Shown here: in pieces, positions 2,827 through 61,504 of the stretch | Numbering within the stretch: the first letter of the stretch is position 1 | Layout: every line of letters starts with the position of its first letter | Origin: Lysinibacillus sphaericus | GTDB taxonomy: Bacteria; Bacillota; Bacilli; Bacillales_A; Planococcaceae | Direction: 5' to 3' | Length of the DNA stretch: 64,000 nt | NCBI RefSeq assembly: GCF_006864135.1 | Contig: NZ_SADV01000025.1 | Coordinates: 1-64,000 of the forward strand | Program-made: the position numbers and the translations under genes | Notes under the pieces: generated by a model | Database searches by the model: none | Told to the model about the DNA's origin: nothing | The model's input: the letters and a program-made list of their open reading frames with translations, nothing else

Positions 2827-4799
2827 GCTTGGTCCTCCTCCTGTTGGATGAATTCATTGTCTAAAATATTTGAATCATCCTCCATACCGAAGTCTACATT
2901 AGCTTCGATCCATTTACGGCGCGGCTCTACTTTATCGCCCATTAAAGTTGTCACACGTCTATCAGCACGTGCACCATCCTCGATCGTCACACGTATTAAT
3001 GTACGTGTTTCAGGGTTCATTGTCGTATCCCACAGCTGGTCAGCATTCATCTCACCAAGCCCTTTATAACGTTGTAATATGTAACCCTTTCCAACTTTTT
3101 TAATGGCCGCTTGTAAGTCATTTTCAGTCCAAGCATATTCAATCACTTCTTTTTTACCAGTGCCTCTTGATATTTTATAAAGTGGTGGTAATGCGATAAA
3201 TACCTTTCCAGCTTCAATCAATGGTCGCATATAACGATAGAAGAACGTTAACAGCAGCACTTGAATATGCGCTCCGTCAGTATCAGCATCGGTCATAATA
3301 ACGACTTTGTCATACGCTGAATCCTCGACAGAGAAATCTGTTCCGACGCCAGCACCAATGGCATGGATAATCGTTGAAATCTCTTCATTTTTCATAATAT
3401 CCTGCAGCTTTGCTTTTTCTGTATTAATAACTTTACCACGCAAAGGTAAAATCGCTTGGAACGTACGATCTCGTCCTTGTTTTGCAGAGCCACCTGCAGA
3501 GTCACCTTCGACTAAATACAGCTCGTTTTTCGCTGCATTTCGAGATTGTGCAGGCGTTAATTTTCCAGAAAGAATGGTACTGGCTTTTTTGCTCTTCTTG
3601 CCGTTTCGTGCATCTTCACGTGCTTTACGAGCCGCTTCACGTACTTGTTGGGCACGAATAGCTTTACGAACAAGAGATGCAGACAATTCTGCGTTTTCCT
3701 CAAGCACATATAAAATTTGCTCCGAAACAACACTATCTACTGCCGAGCGTGCCTCACTCGTACCAAGCTTGCCCTTCGTCTGACCCTCAAATTGTAGTAA
3801 ATGCTCTGGTATACGAACAGAAACAATCGCCGCTAAGCCTTCTCGGATGTCTGTCCCTTCAAGATTTTTATCTTTATCTTTTAACAGGCCAATTTTACGT
3901 GCATATTCATTAAAAACACGTGTTAAAGCTGCCTTGGCACCTGTTTCATGTGTCCCACCATCTCGTGTACGCACATTGTTAACAAATGAAAGGATTGTTT
4001 CTGAGTATCCATCGTTGTATTGAAAGGCGAATTCAACTTCAATTTCGTCTTGGATCCCTTCCACATACTTAACAGGATGAAGGACGTCTTTCTCCTCATT
4101 CAAATACGCAACGAAAGCTTCAATGCCGTTCTCATAAAAGAAAACATCACCTTTGCCTTCCTCGCGTTCATCAATTAACTCAATTTTTAAGCCTTTTAAT
4201 AAAAACGCTGACTCACGTAAACGTTCTGCAAGCGTATCATAATTGTATTTTGTTACAGAGAAAATCGTGTCATCTGGTAGAAAATGAACAAGCGTTCCTG
4301 TCTGCTTTGTTTGTCCAATTTCTTCTAATGTCGTCACAGGATGGCCACCGTTTTCAAAACGTTGTCGATATTTTTTACCATCGCGATGAATCGTAACTTC
4401 TAAAAAAGTGGATAAAGCATTAACAACAGACGAACCTACACCATGTAAGCCACCACTTGTTTTATAGCCGCCTTGTCCGAACTTACCACCGGCATGTAAG
4501 ACAGTGAAGATAATCTCAGGAGTCGGTTTCCCCATCTTATGCATACCTGTTGGCATTCCTCGGCCGAAGTCTCGAACGCTGATACTTTGATCTTTATGAA
4601 TAGTGACAATGATATGAGAACCAAAGCCAGCCAGTGCTTCATCCACCGCATTATCGACGATTTCATATACAAGGTGATGAAGTCCACGGCCATCCGTAGA
4701 ACCGATATACATGCCGGGTCGTTTTCGTACCGCTTCTAATCCTTCTAATACTTGAATGGCGTCATCATTATAGACGCTTGGTGACTGTTTATTCGTCAA
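2823..4799 (-). CDS. parE: DNA topoisomerase IV subunit B (ParE/GrlB)
   Basis: ParE is the ATPase subunit of topoisomerase IV. The GHKL ATPase fold is seen near the N-terminus ([15 protein letters not shown], then GRGMPTGMH and [14 protein letters not shown]), followed by a transducer domain and a TOPRIM domain ([14 protein letters not shown] and the acidic DADTDGAH). I place the start at the TTG at 4799, because GGAGGGG at 4806-4812 sits 6 bases before it. The TTG further upstream at 4814 overlaps that ribosome site. The product is then 658 residues, usual for ParE. It is the first gene of the parE-parC pair and is divergent from plsY, the same arrangement as in B. subtilis. Confidence 0.96.
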
Positions 4800-8073: not shown

Positions 8074-9273
8074 ATGTCAAAATATAAGGCAATATGTTTA
8101 CTAATGATTCTTTCTTTACTTTTAAGTGGTTGCTGGAGTAAGCGCGAACTCAATGAATTAGCAATTGTCGCAGCATTGGGAATAGATAAGGTAGATAATG
8201 AGTTCGAAATAACTGTTCAAGTTGTAGATCCTGGTGAAATCTCCTCCAAACAGCCTACTTCAGGACGATCACCGGTTATTACCTATCATTCAAAAGGTAA
8301 AACGGTCTTTGAGGCCATTAGAAAAATGACAACAGTAACAGCTAGAAAACTTTATTTCGCTCACCTTCAAATCGTTGTACTCGGTGATGAATTGGCGAAA
8401 GAAGGAATGGCCGAACCGTTAGATTTAGTGTCAAGAGATCATGAATTCAGAAATGACTTCGATGTCATCGTTGCTCATGACGCGACTGCCGACGAAGTTT
8501 TAAACGTTTTAACACCTATCGAAAAAGTTCCAGCTAACAAATTACTAAATTCTCTTAAAACGTCAGAGAAAACTTGGGGTACAACACAATCCATTAAAAT
8601 TGATGAATTAATCAATACTTTAAATAACAAAGAAACAAGTGTAGTCATGTCTGCCATTGAAATACAGGGAGATAAAAATGCGGGAAAGGATCCATCGAAT
8701 GTTAAAAAATCGAAGTCTTCTGTGCTATTAAAGTACGCAGGCTTAGGTGTTTTTAAAGAAGATAAATTCATTGGGCTTTTATCAGAAGAAGATAGTAGAA
8801 GTCTAGGTTTTTTAAAGGACAAAATAGACAGTACAATTGAAATTCTTGCTTGCCCTAAGGAAGGTACTGTATCAACAGAGATTACGCACTCAAAGACGAA
8901 AATAAAAGGTAAATTTGAAAATGGAGCACCAAAAATCAATGTTTTTATAGATGTTAGCCAAAATGTCGGAGAAGTTGAATGTACGATAGACCTTACTAAA
9001 GAAAAATCGATTCACTACATCAATAAAAAAACAGAAGAACATATTAAAAAACGAATCGAAGAAACAATTAAAACAGTTCAGCAAAATTATCGGGTCGATA
9101 TTTTTGGATTTGGTTCAGAACTTCATCGTACAAATCCGAAAGAGTGGAAAAAAATAAAAAAAGACTGGCTCACTATATTTCAAGAGGTGCCAGTTAAAGT
9201 TGAAGTACATGTGAACACACAAGGATTAGGGACGATGGAAAACTCATTAGTGAAGAAGCCGAAGGGAGAATAA
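8074..9273 (+). CDS. GerA-type germinant receptor, C subunit (lipoprotein)
   Basis: The C subunit is a lipoprotein on the outer face of the spore inner membrane, needed with A and B for receptor function. The 399-residue product starts with a lipoprotein signal peptide ending in LLLSGC (lipid-modified Cys about residue 20). It then has the family opening WSKRELNELAIVAALGIDK and a Ger(x)C-type C-terminal domain. The gene begins 14 bases after the A subunit and is followed 3 bases later by the small D gene, so the operon is tightly packed. Confidence 0.94.
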   Translation: MSKYKAICLLMILSLLLSGCWSKRELNELAIVAALGIDKVDNEFEITVQVVDPGEISSKQPTSGRSPVITYHSKGKTVFEAIRKMTTVTARKLYFAHLQIVVLGDELAKEGMAEPLDLVSRDHEFRNDFDVIVAHDATADEVLNVLTPIEKVPANKLLNSLKTSEKTWGTTQSIKIDELINTLNNKETSVVMSAIEIQGDKNAGKDPSNVKKSKSSVLLKYAGLGVFKEDKFIGLLSEEDSRSLGFLKDKIDSTIEILACPKEGTVSTEITHSKTKIKGKFENGAPKINVFIDVSQNVGEVECTIDLTKEKSIHYINKKTEEHIKKRIEETIKTVQQNYRVDIFGFGSELHRTNPKEWKKIKKDWLTIFQEVPVKVEVHVNTQGLGTMENSLVKKPKGE

Positions 9274-9276
9274 TCT

Positions 9277-9510
9277 ATGATTATGACGATTTTTATACTA
9301 TTAATTACAGCTGTTATAGCCTTTGCCTTCATTCCAAATTTAAACAAAAATAAAGAAACGAAAACAATCGTTATTTTTTCGATTTTTTTAATGCTCGGTG
9401 CTGCATTAAATGTTGCGGTCTCATTAAGGTTCAAAATACCGAGCCCAATAGATTTAATTACCTTTATTTTTTCACCAATTAAAGATTTATTCATTTCCAT
9501 GACAAAGTAA
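9277..9510 (+). CDS. Small two-helix membrane protein, likely receptor D subunit
   Basis: A 77-residue protein with two hydrophobic segments (about residues 2-18 and 29-47) and a third weaker one near the end. Small two-membrane-segment proteins encoded inside gerA-type operons are known as D subunits, which modulate the receptor. The position between C and B, the size and the topology fit this. A ribosome site AAGGGAG overlaps the end of the C gene. A decayed copy of the same gene lies at 11805-11923, which supports its being a real part of the operon. Confidence 0.75.
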   Translation: MIMTIFILLITAVIAFAFIPNLNKNKETKTIVIFSIFLMLGAALNVAVSLRFKIPSPIDLITFIFSPIKDLFISMTK

Positions 9511-9545
9511 TAAAGCAACTTTATGTTAAGAAAGGGGTATCGTTC

Positions 9546-11108
9546 ATGATGGAAAAAGAAATAATTAGTTCAAGACAATTTATGATCATTACCCTTCTCT
9601 TTTCAATTGGCACAGCCATTTTAATTATCCCTGCAAGTGTAACAAGCGAAGCAAAGCAAGATGCATGGATTGCAGCAATCATTGGTGTCGTTTTAAGTTT
9701 GCCCATAGTAAAGCTTTTCGTTGCTTTAGGAAATAGAACACCTACCCTTACATTTGTAGAGGCTAATGAAAAGATATTAGGTCGTTTTTTTGGAAAATTC
9801 ACTGCAATTGGCTTTATTATTATATCTTTACTTTCTGCCGGTGAATTATTATATTTCATTGGGATTTTTATGAAAACGGAAATTATGCCAGAAACACCTA
9901 CGATGGCGTTTGCATTTATGTTCAGTATTATCATTATATATGCTGCATTTTTAGGTATTGAGGTATTTGCCCGTTCTGCAGAAATACTATGTCCAATTTT
10001 TATTTTAATTTTTATTTTCTTTGTAATTTGTATTTCGCCATCCATCCAGATTGAAAATATACAGCCAATAATGGAAACACCAAAAAAATCATTATTCTTT
10101 AGTATGATTCGATTTATAAGTCTTTTTTCATTCCCGCTTGTTGTATTATTAATGATTTTCCCTTCCGCAGTTAACGTCCAAAAATCTGCACAAAAAGGTT
10201 TTTACATTGGCGCAATTTTGGGAGGGATTGTCTTAATTACGATCATCACACTATCTATCCTTGTCCTAGGTCCGGCAAATACTGCTTCTAGGACATTTCC
10301 TAGTTATTCATTAGCTCAAAGAATTTCAATCGGGAATTTTCTGCAGCGTATTGAAGTGATTATGGCGACCATGTGGGTAATATCTATTTATATTAGAACT
10401 TTTATGTATTTTTATGCTTCGGTGATCGGTATCGCACAAATATGTAAAATTAAAAATCATCGACCGCTCATTTTTCCACTCGGCATGATTATCCTTGGAC
10501 TTTCACAAATTGTTCATCCTAATATTATTCATTCAGATATTTACAATAGAGATATCTGGCCTATATTTTCCTTTGTTTTAATGATTTTATTACCATTAGT
10601 TTTATTACTAGTCTCAATGATTCGCAAAATTAATGGAAATAATACACAAAATGAAAGTAATAGTAATAACGATAATTCTACACAAGGTGAAAGTAGCAGT
10701 AATGGCGGTAATACTTCTCAAAATGAAAGTAGTAGTAATAACAATGATTCTACTCAAAGTGGTAGTAGCAATAATGGCGGAAATACTACACAAAATGAAA
10801 GTAATAGTAATAACAATAATTCTACTCAAAGTGATAGTAGCAATAATGGCGGTAATGCTTCTCAAAATGAAAGTAGTAGTAATAACAATAATTCTACTCA
10901 GAGTGATAGTAGCAGTAATGGCGGTAATGCTTCTCAAAATGAAAGTAGTAGTAATAACAATAATTCTACTCAAAGTGATAGTAGCAGCAATAGCGAAAAT
11001 CCTTCACCGAGCACAAGTGATAACGCTTCAAGCAATAATACACAGAATGATAGCGATACCGGCAATACTCCAAATAGTGATAAAAATAAAGATTCTCCAG
11101 AAAATTAA
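9546..11108 (+). CDS. GerA-type germinant receptor, B subunit with repeat tail
   Basis: The B subunit belongs to the amino acid permease superfamily and probably contributes the germinant binding site. Residues 1 to about 360 hold about ten membrane segments and the usual family opening (EKEIISSRQFMIITLLFSIG). The last 150 or so residues, after the final helix and the sequence MIRKING, are a low-complexity Asn/Ser/Gln tail built from 24-residue tandem units. Usual B subunits are about 365 residues and stop shortly after the last helix, so the 520-residue length is abnormal. A ribosome site AAAGGGG precedes the start. Confidence 0.93.
   Translation: MMEKEIISSRQFMIITLLFSIGTAILIIPASVTSEAKQDAWIAAIIGVVLSLPIVKLFVALGNRTPTLTFVEANEKILGRFFGKFTAIGFIIISLLSAGELLYFIGIFMKTEIMPETPTMAFAFMFSIIIIYAAFLGIEVFARSAEILCPIFILIFIFFVICISPSIQIENIQPIMETPKKSLFFSMIRFISLFSFPLVVLLMIFPSAVNVQKSAQKGFYIGAILGGIVLITIITLSILVLGPANTASRTFPSYSLAQRISIGNFLQRIEVIMATMWVISIYIRTFMYFYASVIGIAQICKIKNHRPLIFPLGMIILGLSQIVHPNIIHSDIYNRDIWPIFSFVLMILLPLVLLLVSMIRKINGNNTQNESNSNNDNSTQGESSSNGGNTSQNESSSNNNDSTQSGSSNNGGNTTQNESNSNNNNSTQSDSSNNGGNASQNESSSNNNNSTQSDSSSNGGNASQNESSSNNNNSTQSDSSSNSENPSPSTSDNASSNNTQNDSDTGNTPNSDKNKDSPEN
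10632..10991 (+). repeat. 72-bp in-frame tandem repeat coding the B-subunit tail
   Basis: Five 72-bp units begin at 10632, 10704, 10776, 10848 and 10920. Each encodes 24 residues of the type GGNxSQNESSSNNNNSTQS followed by about five more Ser/Asn/Asp residues. The last two units are nearly identical at the DNA level, which suggests recent copying. The period is a multiple of three, so the frame is kept. Confidence 0.9.
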
Positions 11109-11962: not shown

Positions 11963-13471
11963 ATGGAAAAAGAAATAATTAGCTCAAGACAATTTATGAT
12001 CATTACCCTTCTCGCTTCAATTGGAACAGCCATTTTAATTAGCCCTGCTAGTGTAGCAAGTGAAGCAAAACAAGATGCCTGGATTGCCGCGATTATTAGT
12101 GTCGTTTTAAGTTTACTTTTAATAAAGCTTTTCATAACTGTAGGAAAACGGACACCTACCCTTACATTTGTAGAAGCTAATGAAAAGATATTAGGTCGCT
12201 TTTTCGGAAAAATAACTTCGATTGGTTTTATTTTTCTATCCCTACTTTCTGCCGGTGAATTATTATATTTCATTGGCATTTTCATGAAAACAGAAGTTTT
12301 GCCAGAAACACCTACAATGGCCTTTGCGTTTCTGTTCAGTATTATCATTATTTATGCTGCATTTCTAGGGATTGAAGTTTTTGCCCGTTCTGCAGAAATA
12401 CTATTCCCATTTTTTATTTTAATTTTTATTTTATTCGTAGTTTGTATTTCACCATCCGTTCAGATGGAAAATCTACAGCCAATAATGGAGGCACCAGCAA
12501 AATCATTATTCTTTAGTATGATCCGATTAATGAGTATTTTTTCATTCCCTCTTGTCATATTATTAATGATTTTTCCTTCTACTGTTAACGTCCATAAATC
12601 AGCACAAAAAGGTTTTTACATTGGCACAATTCTTGGAGGGATTGTCTTAATTGCTATCATCACACTAGCTATCCTTGTCCTAGGTCCGGCAAATACTGCT
12701 TCTAGGACATTTCCTAGCTATTCATTAGCCCAAAGAATTTCAATCGGGAATTTTTTACAACGTATTGAAGTGATTATGGCAGCCATGTGGTTAATATCAA
12801 TTTATATTAAAACTTTTATGTTTTTTTACGCTGGGGTCATCGGCATCGCACAAATATGTAAAATTAAAAATCATCGACCGCTCATTTTTCCATTCGGAAT
12901 GATTATCCTTGGACTTTCACAAATTATTCATCCTAGTATCATTCATTCAGATATTTACAATAGAGAAACCTGGCCTATTTTTTCTTTTATTTTCGCAATC
13001 TTATTACCATTAGTCTTATTACTTGTCGCGAAAATTCGCAAAATTAACGGTAATCAAGGAAATAATACAAAAAGTAATTGTAGTACACAGAATGAAAGCG
13101 GTAGTAATAACGGAAATGCTTCTCAAAATGAAAGTAGTAGTAATAACAATAATTCTACTCAAAGTGATGGTAATAGCAATGCCGGAAATACTACTCAAAG
13201 TGCAAGTAGTAGTAATAATGATAATTCTACTCAAAGTGATGGTAATAGCAATGCCGGGAATGCTTCTCAAAATGAAAGTAATAGTAATAACGATAATTCT
13301 ACTCAAAGTGATGGTAATAGCAATGACAGAAATACTACTCAAAATGAAAGTAGTAATAATAACGAAGATTCTATTCAAAGTGGAAGTAGTAGCAATAGCG
13401 AAAATCCTTCGCAGAGTGTTAGTAGCAGCGATACTGGCAATACGCCAAACAGTGATAAAAACAAAAATTAA
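11963..13471 (+). CDS. Second germinant receptor B subunit with repeat tail
   Basis: This 502-residue permease-like B subunit is a close paralogue of the one at 9546-11108 over the whole membrane domain, and it also ends in an Asn/Ser/Gln-rich repeat tail. It keeps an intact frame and a ribosome site (AAAGGGG) although its own A, C and D partners are decayed. It may supply an alternative B subunit to the intact A-C-D set, or be on its way to loss. Its transcription is uncertain: the upstream operon ends in a terminator, and the leader copied with the relic could provide a promoter. Confidence 0.92.
   Translation: MEKEIISSRQFMIITLLASIGTAILISPASVASEAKQDAWIAAIISVVLSLLLIKLFITVGKRTPTLTFVEANEKILGRFFGKITSIGFIFLSLLSAGELLYFIGIFMKTEVLPETPTMAFAFLFSIIIIYAAFLGIEVFARSAEILFPFFILIFILFVVCISPSVQMENLQPIMEAPAKSLFFSMIRLMSIFSFPLVILLMIFPSTVNVHKSAQKGFYIGTILGGIVLIAIITLAILVLGPANTASRTFPSYSLAQRISIGNFLQRIEVIMAAMWLISIYIKTFMFFYAGVIGIAQICKIKNHRPLIFPFGMIILGLSQIIHPSIIHSDIYNRETWPIFSFIFAILLPLVLLLVAKIRKINGNQGNNTKSNCSTQNESGSNNGNASQNESSSNNNNSTQSDGNSNAGNTTQSASSSNNDNSTQSDGNSNAGNASQNESNSNNDNSTQSDGNSNDRNTTQNESSNNNEDSIQSGSSSNSENPSQSVSSSDTGNTPNSDKNKN
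13109..13396 (+). repeat. 72-bp in-frame tandem repeat coding the second B-subunit tail
   Basis: Four 72-bp units start at 13109, 13181, 13253 and 13325 and encode 24-residue blocks such as AGNTTQSASSSNNDNSTQSD plus four residues. The unit length and pattern match those of the first paralogue, but unit sequences are more alike within each gene than between them in places, suggesting separate homogenisation. Confidence 0.88.
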
Positions 13472-14566: not shown

Positions 14567-14734
14567 TAAAAAATCCCCCTCATTCCATATGAGATAGAAT
14601 GAGAAGGATTTTTCCACGTTCACTCTTATCTCTCAAAGGATAAATCCTTTGCTGGAATTAGCACCTTTCTAACTTTCGTTAGAGGTTGCTGAAGCGTCAT
14701 CGGGCCAAATCCCTCAACTTCTCATGATAAGATT
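14567..14734 (-). promoter_or_regulatory. SAM-I (S-box) riboswitch controlling metA
   Basis: Read on the minus strand, the leader contains the conserved S-box features in order: CTTATCATGAGAAGTTGAGG, GATTTGGCCCGATGACGCTT, CAGCAACC, AGGTGCTAATTCCAGCA, and the closing GAGAGATAAGA. It is followed by a terminator hairpin at about 14567-14613 with a T run. High S-adenosylmethionine should favour the terminator and shut off metA, about 80 bases downstream. Confidence 0.96.
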
Positions 14735-16283: not shown

Positions 16284-17066
16284 ATGCTATTTGAAGTAGA
16301 TGTAAATGTAGTCATATTATTAATATCTTTTGGATTTTTAGCCGCCTTTGTGGATGCAGTCGTTGGAGGTGGTGGCTTAATTGCGTTACCTGCCCTTATG
16401 TTTGCTGGTTTAAATCCAGCAGCGGCAGTAGCCACTAATAAACTTGCCGGCACCATGGGTTCTTTAACATCAACCCTTTCTTTTTATCGATCTGGTCAGC
16501 TAGAAATTCGTTCGGTTATTAAATACTTTCCCCTAGCCTTTGTAGGATCACTTTTTGGTGCATGGACAGTTCATTTAATTAATCCTGAATTACTAAAACC
16601 ACTTATGCTCATAATGCTTGCTGCTGTTGCAGTCTATACAATCTTTAAAAAAGATTGGGGTTCTGTAGCTACAGTCAAAAATTTAAAGTTTACGCACTTA
16701 GTCCTATTCATGCTGTTGTTATTTACAATTGGGTTTTATGATGGGTTTCTTGGTCCAGGAACTGGCTCGTTTTTAATCTTTAGTTTTTTATTAGTCGGCT
16801 TCGATTTCTTAAAGGCAGCAGGAAACGCGAAATTTTTAAACTTAGCAAGTAATTTTGCCGGCCTTTTAATGTTCGCCTACTTAGGTCAGATTCATTATGT
16901 CTATGGTTTACTAATGGGTATCGCTCAAATTGCCGGTGCATTTGTAGGCTCACGTATGGCGATTAAAAAAGGTAGCGGCTTTGTCCGCGTATTATTTATT
17001 ATCGTAACGATTACTTTGTTAACTAAAAATGCTTATGATTACATAAAAAACGCCGTAGATATCTAG
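16284..17066 (+). CDS. TSUP (TauE/SafE) family membrane exporter
   Basis: A 260-residue membrane protein of the TauE/SafE/YfcA family, with about eight hydrophobic segments arranged as two related halves. The first half has GFLAAFVDAVVGGGGLIALPAL with the conserved Gly-rich loop and ATNKLAGTMGS; the second has IGFYDGFLGPGTGSFLIF and NAKFLNLASNFAGL. Family members export sulfite, sulfonates or other small anions across the cytoplasmic membrane. The substrate here is unknown. The divergent TrmB-like gene is the likely regulator. Confidence 0.9.
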   Translation: MLFEVDVNVVILLISFGFLAAFVDAVVGGGGLIALPALMFAGLNPAAAVATNKLAGTMGSLTSTLSFYRSGQLEIRSVIKYFPLAFVGSLFGAWTVHLINPELLKPLMLIMLAAVAVYTIFKKDWGSVATVKNLKFTHLVLFMLLLFTIGFYDGFLGPGTGSFLIFSFLLVGFDFLKAAGNAKFLNLASNFAGLLMFAYLGQIHYVYGLLMGIAQIAGAFVGSRMAIKKGSGFVRVLFIIVTITLLTKNAYDYIKNAVDI

Positions 17067-17076
17067 CTCTACGGTG
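17051..17076 (+). terminator. Hairpin at the end of the TSUP gene
   Basis: CCGTAGA pairs with TCTACGG around an 8-nt loop that includes the stop codon; GTCTTAG follows without a long T run. It begins with CGCCGTAGATAT, the same 12 bases that open the terminator at the far side of the repeat array (from about 17865). Confidence 0.45.
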
Positions 17077-17119
17077 TCTTAGCTTGTCGACAATCTTTGG
17101 CGTTCTGTTTCTTTAATTT

Positions 17120-17856
17120 GGAGAGGCTTTTGGTCATTTCGGAGGGGCTTTCTGTCACTTTAGAGGGGCTTTCTGTCACTTTAGAGGGGCTTTCCGTCAC
17201 TTTGAAATTGTCTATCCATCAATCCAGATATTCTATCCACGATTTTGGAGGTTCTATCCACGGTTTGGGTGATCCTCGCCATCATTTTTGAAGGTTCTAT
17301 CCATCACTTCAAGTTATTTCCGTCAATTCAGGTTCTATCCATCACTTCGGAGGGACTTTCCGTCACTTTGAAATTTCTATCCATCAATCCAGAAATTCTA
17401 TCCACGATTTTGGAAGTTCTATCCACCATTTTGAAGGTTCTATCCACGATTTGGGTGATCCTCGCCATCATTTTTGAAGGCTCTATCCATCACTTCAAGT
17501 TCTCTCCAGTCACTTCAAGTTATTTCCGTCAATTCAGGTTCTATCCATCACTTCGGAGGGACTTTCCGTCACTTTGAAATTTCTATCCATCAATCCAGAA
17601 ATTCTATCCACGATTTTGGAAGTTCTATCCACCATTTTGAAGGTTCTATCCACGATTTGGGTGATCCTCGCCATCATTTTTGAAGGCTCTATCCATCACT
17701 TCAAGTTCTTTCTGTCACTTCAGTAGTTCTTTCCGTCACTTCGAACTTTCTATCCATCAATTCAGAGATTCTATCCGCGATTTCGAATTTTCTATCCACG
17801 ATTTTGGACAATCTATCCATCATTACGAACTTTCTATCCATCGCTTATTGTCTGCA
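17120..17856. repeat. Degenerate 21-bp tandem repeat array
   Basis: About 35 units of roughly 21 bp fill this intergenic space. The left part uses AGAGGGGCTTTCTGTCACTTT. Most of the rest uses variants of TTCTATCCAYSATTTTGGAAG, with the TATCCA core present about 21 times. A higher-order copy of 206 bp is visible: the block starting at 17331 recurs almost exactly at 17537. Since 21 is a multiple of three, several spurious open frames with repeated Ser-Ile-His or Leu-Ser-Val-Thr run through it; none has a ribosome site. I see no protein or RNA gene. Confidence 0.92.
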
Positions 17857-17860
17857 AAAT

Positions 17861-17895
17861 AAACCGCCGTAGATATTTTATCACTACGGCGGTTT
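17861..17895. terminator. Bidirectional terminator at the end of panF
   Basis: AAACCGCCGTAG and CTACGGCGGTTT form a perfect 12-bp stem with an 11-nt loop, followed by T-rich sequence on both strands. It should terminate the panF transcript on the minus strand. Confidence 0.85.
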
Positions 17896-17900
17896 CTAAT

Positions 17901-19346
17901 TTAAATAAACAACTTTTCATTTTTAAATTTATGACTTGTTAATAAGCTAACAATAATAAATATCACTAAGGAAGCGACGATTGGAATTGTCACGGTATGC
18001 ATACCAAAGACAGAAGGATAAAAACGATCAATGATTATATAAAGGATCATACCCGAAATCATTGACGCTATAGCACCATACTTATTGGCCTTTTTCCAAT
18101 ATAGTCCTAATACGACGGTCCAAATAAAGACTGCCTCAAGTCCGCCAAAAGCGAATAAATTTAGCCATACTAATAAATCTGGTGGATTTAGTGCAAAAAC
18201 GACAACGGCTAAACCGATCACTGTCGTAACAATAAAACTTGCACGCTTAATTTCCGTATCATTCGCTGTTGGTTTTATATAATTTAAGTAAATATCTTTC
18301 ACTACTGTGGAGCTTACAAGCATAAGTAACGCGTTGACTGTAGACATCGTTGCTGCCATCGGTGCTGCTAAAACAATGCCAGCTAAAAATGGTGGTAAAA
18401 CTTTTAATGTTAGCATCGGCATAACTTTATCACCAATTTCAATACCCGGTATCACTGGTCGTGCAAAAACACCGATTAGATGCATCCCAAACATTATTGT
18501 CCCAATGGCAATAGTGCCAATGATAATAGCTAAATGCATACTTTTAGAATCTTTATAGCTCATAGCACGAACTGCGATTTGTGGAAGTCCCACAACTCCA
18601 ACACCAATCAAAATCCAAAATGTAGATACGTATAATGGCGTTAACTCACCTTCTGCTCCAAATGGAGACACAAGATTCGGATTCTCAACGACAAGTGAAG
18701 CCATAATATTATCGATTCCTCCACCAGCGATGATTGTCCCAATTAATAAAATAATAGTTCCGATAACCATAATAGAGCCTTGCACCGTATCCGTTAGTGC
18801 AACAGCACGGAAGCCCCCAATAATCACATACACTAATACCGAAATCGCAAATATAAAGAGTGCAGTTGTATAGTTTAAGCCAGTTAATGATTCTATTAAT
18901 CGAGCACCACCTACCCATTGGGCCATCATTGCGGAAAATAAAAAAATGATAATACTAATGGCCGATAGGATAACAATAGTATGACTCTTATAGCGTTCTC
19001 GTAAAAAATCTATTAACGTGATGGCTTGATACCGTCTTGCGATAATAGCAAATTTCTTCCCTAAAATCATTAAGACGAAATAACCTGCAGGAAGCTGCGC
19101 CATCGCCAGCAATACCCAGCCAAGCCCTTTCGTGTATGCAACGCCTGGACCACCAATAAAGCTACTTGCACTACCGTACGTAGCAATCATTGTCATAGCG
19201 AGGATAAAGCCTCCCATTTCACGACCACCGAGGAAGTATTCCTGTAAAAATGAATTGGAAGAGCGTACATACTTATTTGACCAGATCCCAATACCAAAAA
19301 TGATGACTAGAAATAATAGCAGTGGAAAAATAACTTGCCAATGCAT
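17901..19346 (-). CDS. panF: Sodium/pantothenate symporter PanF
   Basis: A 481-residue sodium:solute symporter of the SSS family with about 13 membrane segments. The opening (FFLGG-type motif as YFLGGREMGGFILAMTMIATYGSASSF, in part) and the segment GVAYTKGLGWVLLAMAQLPA fit pantothenate permeases. The best specific evidence is the small DUF997/YhdT-like gene directly upstream, a pairing typical of panF. PanF imports pantothenate, the coenzyme A precursor, with sodium. The ATG overlaps the upstream stop codon by one base (TAATG), so the two are translationally coupled. Confidence 0.9.
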   Translation of the reverse strand: MHWQVIFPLLLFLVIIFGIGIWSNKYVRSSNSFLQEYFLGGREMGGFILAMTMIATYGSASSFIGGPGVAYTKGLGWVLLAMAQLPAGYFVLMILGKKFAIIARRYQAITLIDFLRERYKSHTIVILSAISIIIFLFSAMMAQWVGGARLIESLTGLNYTTALFIFAISVLVYVIIGGFRAVALTDTVQGSIMVIGTIILLIGTIIAGGGIDNIMASLVVENPNLVSPFGAEGELTPLYVSTFWILIGVGVVGLPQIAVRAMSYKDSKSMHLAIIIGTIAIGTIMFGMHLIGVFARPVIPGIEIGDKVMPMLTLKVLPPFLAGIVLAAPMAATMSTVNALLMLVSSTVVKDIYLNYIKPTANDTEIKRASFIVTTVIGLAVVVFALNPPDLLVWLNLFAFGGLEAVFIWTVVLGLYWKKANKYGAIASMISGMILYIIIDRFYPSVFGMHTVTIPIVASLVIFIIVSLLTSHKFKNEKLFI

Positions 19347-31939: not shown

Positions 31940-31969
31940 GATAAGTGTGTTTTTTCCGGGGATGAAGGT

Positions 31970-32190
31970 TTATCGAAACATTTTTAAGATTTATCGAGAA
32001 ATTTTGATTGTTTATCGACCAACTTTATCAATTTTTCACCCAACTTTTAAAAAAAATCGACCTTCATGTACTCAAATCTTAGCTGCAGCCCTTTTTTGAA
32101 GCAAAGTGAGATTTATCGGAATAAAATTGTTTTTTATCGGAACAATTTCTGATTTTATCGGAATGTTTTATCGATTTATCGGAATCTTTC
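31970..32190. repeat. Degenerate repeats with TTTATCGG core
   Basis: About nine copies of TTTATCGA or TTTATCGGAA occur at irregular spacings of roughly 6-25 bp in the gap upstream of livJ. Between them lies AT-rich, diverged sequence. I see no gene. The arrangement recalls, without sharing sequence, the 21-bp array at 17120-17856. Confidence 0.6.
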
Positions 32191-32218
32191 AGAAATTTAC
32201 AGTTTTCTGAGCGCACAT

Positions 32219-44787: not shown

Positions 44788-45072
44788 GCATGTAAATGTT
44801 TTTTGCGCGAAAGCGTAGTGCTAACGCAGCATCAGCAATGTGTTTTTTGCCTTCGAAACGCAGCGTCAGCAACATGTTTTTTGCCTATGCGAAAGCAAAG
44901 CGTCAGCAACAGCACCGATATTGGTCACTCAGTCGTTGCCACATGACATGGCGTTCTTAGACTGGGTTCCTCTGTTTGAACACACGTATAAATCCGCATT
45001 TATCTCACCTCCTATAGGAGTGGTAGACTTCTGTAGCTGACGCTTCGCCTTTTCTACAAAAAACATTTGCTG
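44788..45072. repeat. Cluster of ~38-bp repeat units of the dispersed element
   Basis: Three direct units resembling AATGTTTTTTGCGCGAAAGC followed by GTAGTGCTAACGCAGCATCAGC lie at about 44788-44915. One inverted unit (GCTGACGCTTCGCC followed by AAAACATTTGCTGG) lies at 45037-45072. The same unit appears twice inside the copy at 57042-57281. The gap from 44490 to 45124 contains no gene that I can support. Confidence 0.6.
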
Positions 45073-46405: not shown

Positions 46406-46644
46406 AATATACACAGGATTAATGAGGCTTGTCGACGAAATAGCTTGATAAATTAATTCCTATCAACTATTGGTTCATGCCGGATTCTTCACTTGAATTA
46501 ATTATTCTTTTCTCAAAAGGTTACGCCTGAAAAGAGCCACCAAGATCATCATAGATCAATTGATATTCTAGGTTACTATTTATAGCGGAATCATAAATTT
46601 TCCATTACAAATAATAACAAATCGTTTATAATACTATTTGAATG

Positions 46645-46746
46645 AAAAAACACGATTCGGTTGGTAGTCCGGATGCATCATTAATATGATGTCAGTAACC
46701 TTCCCCTCCTCGGGATGTCCATCATTCGATTTTAATATGAGGAGGG
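46645..46746 (+). promoter_or_regulatory. yjdF-motif (aza-aromatic) riboswitch
   Basis: The leader directly before yjdF contains a structured region starting near ACACGATTCGGTTGGTAGTC. It ends with a sequestering arrangement in which CCCTCCTC (46704-46711) is exactly complementary to the ribosome site GAGGAGGG (46739-46746). Leaders of yjdF genes are a known riboswitch class that responds to aza-aromatic compounds. The assignment rests on gene identity, position and this anti-Shine-Dalgarno pairing. Confidence 0.8.
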
Positions 46747-57041: not shown

Positions 57042-57281
57042 GTTGATTTCCGTTCCGACTGGGCGCTTTGTTGCTGCCGCTTCGCTTTCGCTACAGAAAA
57101 CATTTGTTGCTGCCGCTACGTTAACACTACGCTTTCGCACAGAAAACATCCGCTGCGCTGCAGGGTCTCGGGCCAACACGATGTTGGTCACGAAGGCGTT
57201 ATCACAGGATGTGATGCTTTTAGCCTTCGTTCCTCTATCGCTGATCCCCGAGGAGTCGCCTATTCTCCACTCCAATCAACT
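57042..57281. repeat. Best-preserved dispersed GC-rich intergenic repeat
   Basis: The element is bounded by GTTGATTTCCGTTCCGACTG and by TTCTCCACTCCAATCAAC, so its ends are GTTGAT and ATCAAC inverted repeats. Inside are two ~38-bp units (GCTGCCGCTTCGCTTTCGC type) and the GACTCCTCGGGGATCAGCG motif on the minus strand. It is GC-richer than its surroundings. Open frames through it lack ribosome sites and are not genes. Confidence 0.75.
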
Positions 57282-61230: not shown

Positions 61231-61460
61231 AAAAACCCCGTCCCAAGTAAGGGACGGGGTTAACCGCGAATACCACCCTAATTCTATTGAAGCATCGTTC
61301 AATAGCACTCAGCAACGTACAATCATACGTGTTCTTTTTAACGGTAGACACCCGAATCAGCTTACTATGTTCAGCCAATCTTCTCAGAGAGGATCTTCAT
61401 GTAACACTTGCACACCGACTTCCACCAATATGTCGGCTCTCTGTAGAACAAAATGAAACA
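61231..61460 (-). promoter_or_regulatory. T-box leader of ileS (Ile specifier)
   Basis: On the minus strand the T-box sequence AGGGTGGTATTCGCG (61265-61279) is followed by the terminator AACCCCGTCCC with GGGACGGGGTTTTTT (61231-61261). Stem I closes with CAGAGAG and CTCTCTG (61437-61443 and 61385-61391). Right beside the 3' strand of that stem is GAAGATC, whose ATC codon (61392-61394) is the Ile specifier. Uncharged tRNA-Ile would stabilise the antiterminator and turn on ileS. Confidence 0.95.
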
Positions 61461-61504
61461 CTACTCTTTCTCATCAACGAATTTGTATGCTTTTATTGTC
61501 AATC

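Follow-up and report, generated by a model that had tools for sequence, protein, structure and literature searches.

The tandem array of degenerate 21-bp repeats at positions 17120–17851 of the window (the whole stretch of DNA analysed, 64,000 nucleotides) is best read as belonging to a family of intergenic arrays, polar and iteron-like, that spans the genus and is maintained by selection. Each unit contains a constrained core, the step from one unit to the next is mostly 21 bp, the arrays are oriented with replication and lie at gene ends, and they persist at orthologous sites. The structure described in the original prediction is real; that it is one of dozens, nearly all of them oriented with replication, had been overlooked.

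The array in the window and its relatives

The array comprises ~33 units when weaker units and those missed by the profile are counted (30 by a unit profile trained on the whole array set; Table 1), close to the ~35 first claimed. TRF detected a period of 21 at 17117–17203, 17231–17303, and 17294–17846, and a period of 206 at 17294–17767 with a 94% match. The 200-bp repeat at a lag of 206 bp is perfect, so the latest duplication in the array is recent. The landmark GGTGATCCTCGCC occurs at 17268, 17454, and 17660, that is, at distances of 186 and then 206 bp, which places an extra unit of ~20 bp in one copy. Both the higher-order copy with an added unit and the recent expansion that had been read from the sequence beforehand were thus confirmed.

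As had also been stated, the array separates two unrelated genes and holds no gene of its own. The neighbors are a TauE-type exporter and a sodium:solute symporter, which are convergent, and the sole ORF of at least 100 aa in its interior is a 110-aa ORF composed of repeats. The two hairpins that flank it have CGCCGTAGATAT in common; the second is absent from the output of both hairpin scans, and it exceeds their loop limits. A search of Rfam with the window array returned no credible family, the two sub-threshold hits having E values of 0.45 and 0.8. The array is not a product of chance, because a two-unit pattern gave 98 matches in its own genome and 0 when read backwards as a control.

Table 1. 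Features of the window array and its flanks, with positions in the window.
Feature	Position	Strand	Basis
Upstream flank, TauE/SafE exporter gene	16284..17066	+	PF01925, E 5.5e-49
Hairpin ACGCCGTAGATAT...CTACGGTGT at end of exporter gene	17050..17077	+	Terminator-like on - strand (scan)
Weak first array units	17120..17144	+	TRF 17117-17203, period 21; sequence reading
21-bp array, 30 profile-matching units	17145..17851	+ is the pyrimidine-rich strand, its complement purine-rich	TRF, profile
Higher-order duplication, 17304-17503 = 17510-17709, 200/200 identical, lag 206	17304..17709	+	TRF period 206
Second hairpin CCGCCGTAGATAT...CTACGGCGG, directly 3' of symporter gene	17864..17892	-	Seen by eye
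Downstream flank, sodium:solute symporter gene, convergent	17901..19346	-	PF00474, E 1.7e-105

In the sampled part of the same genome (~0.83 Mb read of 5.12 Mb), the profile found 34 arrays of at least three units. Two of these fail the stricter array rule used for the set of 92 arrays analysed below, which is made up of 32 from this genome and 60 from eight other species (nine species altogether). A search of related genomes for the unit had been proposed, with absence from all relatives and random change of unit length named as the marks of a neutral satellite. The unit is far from absent: the two-unit pattern matches 14 of 16 genomes of the same genus and, of 135 further genomes in the family, 1. 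With a three-unit pattern, 26 of the 32 genomes of the genus are positive (backwards control, 6 matches over all 32), leaving six with no three-unit match. The array-bearing genus is probably Lysinibacillus; an array of 23 units, similar in kind to the window array, is present in Lysinibacillus sp. FJAT-14745. The Lysinibacillus-type core is rare in samples drawn from across the class (398 genomes), being found in 6 genomes with the three-unit pattern and 7 with the two-unit pattern, and matches outside the genus are mainly single, several of them within predicted genes, except for arrays in G455 and G107. An origin of the window array in a mobile element or phage was rejected, since it has no match in plasmid and phage collections; one IMG/VR viral contig (L204, 393–497) carries a 5-unit array beside a hairpin.

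The history of the site in the window was followed through the exporter gene, for which a search of 32 genomes gave 22 close orthologous loci, the best hit elsewhere being a ~70%-identical paralogue or no close orthologue being listed. An array lies beside the gene in 8 of the 22 loci, in eight species. Of the 14 array-less loci, direct reading of 11 revealed a single hairpin and then the end of the symporter gene; for the other three (L152, L153, and L156) the printed stretch is uninformative. In the five array loci printed in readable orientation (L144, L146, L149, L150, and L151), the array comes after a hairpin whose stem is CGCCGTAGA or CGCTGTAGA, and a second hairpin with the same stem lies past it in L149 and in the window, where the far side was printed. 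A duplicated terminator was considered as a general mark of insertion and set aside; it is present at the site in the window and not evident by eye at the other printed flanks.

Over the whole set, 54 of the 92 arrays fall into 22 cross-species groups at orthologous sites, where the unit sequences have turned over; these arrays are not independent, and the 92 arrays do not amount to 92 events. Grouping required a concordant side and strand, with one group resting on one side only, and eight discordant flank pairs were listed, one of them L072 with L266. One orthologous group spans the genome of the window, G031, G021, and G019, its spacers differing and its core remaining the same. The number of units varies between orthologues, for example 20 and 57 in L080 and L247. 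Such variation, the perfect recent duplication in the window array, and the six genus genomes with no match all favor the main rival explanation, a strand-biased neutral or selfish minisatellite. In that account a seed would spread only rarely, grow by slippage or unequal exchange, and persist where it is harmless, namely at gene ends and away from promoters, with one orientation relative to the fork surviving since slippage is strand-dependent. It is considered unlikely, if a serious contender, on account of the unit anatomy described next. Under the selected-family reading, unequal exchange would hold the arrays long through both expansion and contraction.

A constrained core, a 21-bp step, and polarity with replication

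The core, CTATCC-N-YC-A-CTTT, is non-palindromic, 14 nt long, and constrained over the 92 arrays from nine species, most strongly at TCC. The 1019 units from the eight other species give the consensus TT-CTATCC-N-YC-A-CTTT, with five further positions that vary almost freely. Entropy was measured with one majority base per array and compared between arrays. In 58 other-species arrays it is 0–0.29 bits over CTATCC and 0–0.13 at the first two T of CTTT, rising to 0.48–0.96 over YC-A-C and 1.45 at N; the two T ahead of the core give ~0.65 bits, and the other five of the seven spacer positions are nearly random at 1.72–1.95 bits. In 29 arrays of the window's own genome, TCC gives 0–0.22 bits and the five spacer positions 0.22–1.69, a weaker contrast, several spacer positions being conserved there as well.

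Because the loci were chosen by a match to the core, and the positions of the search pattern overlap the conserved ones, the constraint was checked in arrays of at least 10 units after setting aside every unit that took part in an exact triple match of the pattern, which left 373 of 451 units from the own genome and 534 of 880 from elsewhere. T6, C7, and C8 stand at 0.96–0.98 in both sets, and the last four positions at 0.32–0.51 in the others and 0.45–0.71 in the own set. Units skipped by the profile retain TCC in 39 of 48 cases among the others and in 10 of 20 in the own genome. The core constraint is therefore well supported and not due to ascertainment alone; this check is offset by the weaker contrast in the own genome, and the probabilities given to the competing readings are unchanged by it.

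Of the listed intervals between units, 350 of 458 from the own genome and 742 of 951 from elsewhere measure exactly 21 bp, and 19 bp comes second (totals over only the 14 commonest lengths). A neutral satellite would lack position-specific constraint within its unit. Near-random spacers next to a conserved TCC across arrays and species are unexpected under neutrality or uniform homogenisation, and the 21-bp step prevails despite the turnover of spacers; the weaker contrast in the own genome is on the side of the minisatellite. A constrained core, a prevailing step of two helical turns, and a free spacer together suggest that something reads the core in phase, and a putative factor would do so once per 21 bp. 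This lends some support to the earlier suggestion that a protein could align on one face of the DNA, by way of the prevailing step, the constrained core, and the freer spacer. DnaA boxes were rejected: CTATCCACG resembles the DnaA box, yet conservation in the genus does not extend to the ACA half. Primase sites were also rejected, the motif being on the wrong strand.

Polarity is nearly uniform. The pyrimidine strand is the C-rich strand of the surroundings in 89 of 92 arrays, and 48 of 49 listed arrays in five genomes, each with one chromosome-sized contig, are on the strand expected for their replichore, where the terminus was taken opposite the origin and the origin was assumed at the contig start (G031, G015, and G008) or placed from the rho gene (G019 and G021). 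The count for G008 uses the two-unit list, that genome having more matches by the three-unit pattern, and G006 and G007 were left out of the tally because their origin is unsure and their lists are incomplete. Convergent gene pairs are symmetrical for genes, and 28 of the 30 arrays within them still follow the skew, the exceptions being L072 and L238, the latter truly out of line with its replichore. Lagging-strand genes flank an array on both sides in six cases; skew shows agreement with replication in five of these, and in the sixth, L253, position does, this array fitting its replichore despite a slightly positive local skew. Orientation by the neighboring gene alone was rejected as the weaker rule, the downstream gene being opposite in 77 of 92 arrays compared with 89 of 92 for skew. 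The array at 9827–10135 of L072 is a variant with a AATCCACGRYTAAGAC-like core and the only one of the 32 own arrays on the G-rich strand.

Orientation by replichore and a period that fits two helical turns would also suit a chromosome-handling element, in which a translocase, a segregation protein, or a fork-associated protein on phased cores reads direction, as direction on the chromosome is read from KOPS/SRS-type sequences. Arrays lie in the terminus-proximal half in 16 of 17 cases in G031, 14 of 14 in G019, and 4 of 5 in G021, as such an element would favor. The bias is weak in G015 (4 of 7) and G008 (4 of 6), however, and many of the sites in G031 and G019 are orthologous and hence not independent. 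With mere tens of loci per genome, six genus genomes lacking a match, and no candidate protein, this account is distinctly unlikely.

Arrays are placed at gene ends. With genes called by an own simple codon-usage caller and 583 array-free intergenic gaps of 100–1500 bp as background, convergent gaps are enriched, holding 30 of the 90 arrays in separate gaps against 68 of the 583 background gaps (p 1e-6; two of the 92 are not separate gaps), and divergent gaps are depleted (9 of 90 versus 142 of 583, p 0.0017), with no significant difference for tandem gaps. The downstream gene turns its 3' end to the array in 77 of the 92, at a median distance of 61 bp in the own genome and 68 bp in the others. 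The depletion of divergent gaps is also what avoidance of harm would give a minisatellite.

Other repeats with the same period were seen in a core-independent scan of 101 loci for self-similarity at lags 15–40 in intergenic DNA outside the arrays. It returned nine stretches in seven loci at lag 21, two at lag 15, and 15 at lags 34–38, and none at lags 16–20 or 22–33. These other lag-21 units differ in sequence, as in the TTTATCGGAA and TTATCAGCGAT types. Long 21-bp arrays of further units occur in G107, from another genus of the family, and G455, from another family of the class. Among the other 21-bp families, cores such as CTATTCGCACTAAA and TTTATCCATCAGTT look similar to CTATCCGTCACTTT by eye. 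The strand rule is not common to all of the other 21-bp families, which counts against the selected-family reading, as does the weaker contrast between core and spacer in the own genome. A speculative extension, more probably wrong than right by a wide measure, is that Bacilli carry a general class of chromosomal arrays with a short core at two helical turns and several core families per genome, each presumably with its own factor, the major family marking replication direction at gene ends as a polar, phased insulator or stop element. No description of such a class appeared among the open-licence PMC papers listed by literature searches, nor of Lysinibacillus, 21-bp, replichore, core, or replication-linked repeats of this kind.

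Several further repeats and RNA elements were recorded in passing. At about 31955–32200 the window holds a distinct 21-bp intergenic repeat with a TTTATCGGAA-type core between two co-directional genes, a type also present in L080 and L087. The long arrays with other cores in G107 and G455 lie at 8200–10300 and 18950–19850 of L303 and at 3250–4250 and 9950–10700 of L304. Repeats of 36 bp occupy 10635–11053 and 13093–13456 of the window, the second stretch lying inside a 502-aa ORF (11963–13471), where it gives an Asn/Ser-rich tail. The window also contains two Bacillaceae-1 RNA matches (44823–44976 and 57173–57239), one of which adjoins a 34-bp tandem repeat, an azaaromatic (yjdF) riboswitch (46634–46738), a T-box leader (61247–61486), and a SAM riboswitch (14623–14733).

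A possible stop for head-on transcription

The strand rule and the placement at gene ends suggest a directional job, and what that job may be was inferred from these features together with the core, the step, and the persistence of the arrays. Tentatively, with a likelihood put somewhat below even, the arrays are selected, phased, one-way stops for head-on transcription, and Rho is their likely, though unproven, partner. An array would stop transcription that opposes the replication fork, the stopped RNA being antisense, or read-through from a lagging-strand gene, that would otherwise enter the 3' end of a leading-strand gene. Head-on transcription of the array would yield a C-rich, T-rich, weakly folded RNA, the kind of target used by Bacillus Rho, and a phase-bound protein might add a polar roadblock. 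A role in protecting genes does not predict the six arrays between two lagging-strand genes, which is evidence against it.

In PMC13323073, Rho of B. subtilis is described as terminating RNAs with long C>G, T-rich stretches and rarely sense coding ones. The composition of the arrays agrees with this: the 61 arrays that reach 150 nt average 0.176 in (C-G)/length, where the background averages 0.000 (sd 0.071), and 55 of the 61 pass C-G of at least 0.10 with T of at least 0.33, versus 4% of background windows, by thresholds chosen for this analysis and not the published score (the 31 of 92 arrays shorter than 150 nt were left out). The window array, with a C-G of 0.106, is just over the threshold and weaker than average for Rho. 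The mean MFE of 67 pyrimidine-strand 120-mers is -13.5 kcal/mol, and that of 200 genomic 120-mers taken at random is -20.9 kcal/mol; folding of the purine strand is weak too, at -17.3 kcal/mol. A structured RNA was rejected, there being nothing credible in Rfam and neither strand of a 300-nt piece of the window array folding better than its shuffles (z +0.43 and +2.39); the pyrimidine RNA folds about like its shuffles (z +0.43), and the purine strand no better than any of 200.

Rho needs composition and no fixed core or spacing, and composition alone leaves the core, the step, and the spacers unexplained. The spacers contain G at 0.309, C at 0.229, A at 0.246, and T at 0.217 in a sequence of 37.6% GC, and their excess of G over C is opposite to what selection by Rho predicts. 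The rho gene is present in 32 of 32 genus genomes, including the six with no array match, so the loss of Rho was rejected as the reason for those genomes, and they provide no natural knock-out.

The opposite strand might matter instead, if transcription runs from the 3' end of a co-directional gene into the array and the GGA-containing core of the purine strand binds an RNA-binding protein as a sponge or 3'-end protector. In 77 of the 92 arrays the purine strand does lie immediately 3' of a gene and has the same direction as that gene. A hairpin nevertheless stands between gene and array in many printed flanks (by eye, uncounted), the poor folding of the purine strand in the window relative to its 200 shuffles is no help, and the strand follows replication even with no adjoining leading-strand gene; this explanation is very unlikely.

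Should a factor read the core, the dozens of arrays that occur naturally in one genus, at varied lengths, would form a ready system for studying how replication-opposing transcription is stopped or how chromosome direction is marked. That families differing in their cores have the 21-bp period in common suggests that they share the architecture of a reader or the process by which arrays are made. If the arrays are neutral, their strict strand bias is a clean case of replication-dependent satellite stability.

Comparison with known systems

Iteron arrays of plasmid replication origins consist of ~20–22-bp direct repeats in helical phase with a non-palindromic, conserved core. The present arrays share the direct repeats, the helical phase at about two turns (a 21-bp step in most units), and the non-palindromic conserved core. 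They differ in lying on chromosome-sized contigs at dozens of gene-end loci rather than at a replication origin, and the window array has no match in the plasmid or phage collections. REP elements are palindromic and linked to transposases; like REP/BIME and other bacterial intergenic repeats, the arrays are dispersed at gene 3' ends and lineage-specific, whereas they are non-palindromic and phased. As the original prediction held, the window array is not CRISPR-like: in place of identical repeats and unique spacers it has degenerate units, a 7-nt spacer, and higher-order duplications, and its flanking genes encode transporters.

The architecture imparting sequences (AIMS) and KOPS, as described in PMC5993296, resemble the arrays in replichore strand bias. 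Enrichment toward the terminus is clear in two and suggestive in one of the five genomes here, weak in the others, and so not general. AIMS are high-copy octamers in that source, whereas the present elements are arranged in tandem and occupy a few tens of intergenic sites. Borg tandem repeats, as described in PMC9879509, are likewise fast-evolving, and in each replichore the gene strand has a biased composition; their units are perfect, virtually all unique to a locus, and variable in length, whereas here one degenerate unit recurs at many loci with one main period. In RNA terms the arrays resemble the Bacillus Rho signals of PMC13323073, which are long, C>G, T-rich, weakly structured RNAs antisense to genes and more than 150 nt in length, a composition shown by 55 of the 61 longer arrays at the thresholds used here and only just by the window array. 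Those signals are defined there by composition, whereas the arrays add to a similar composition a constrained core, a prevailing 21-bp step, and spacers richer in G than in C.
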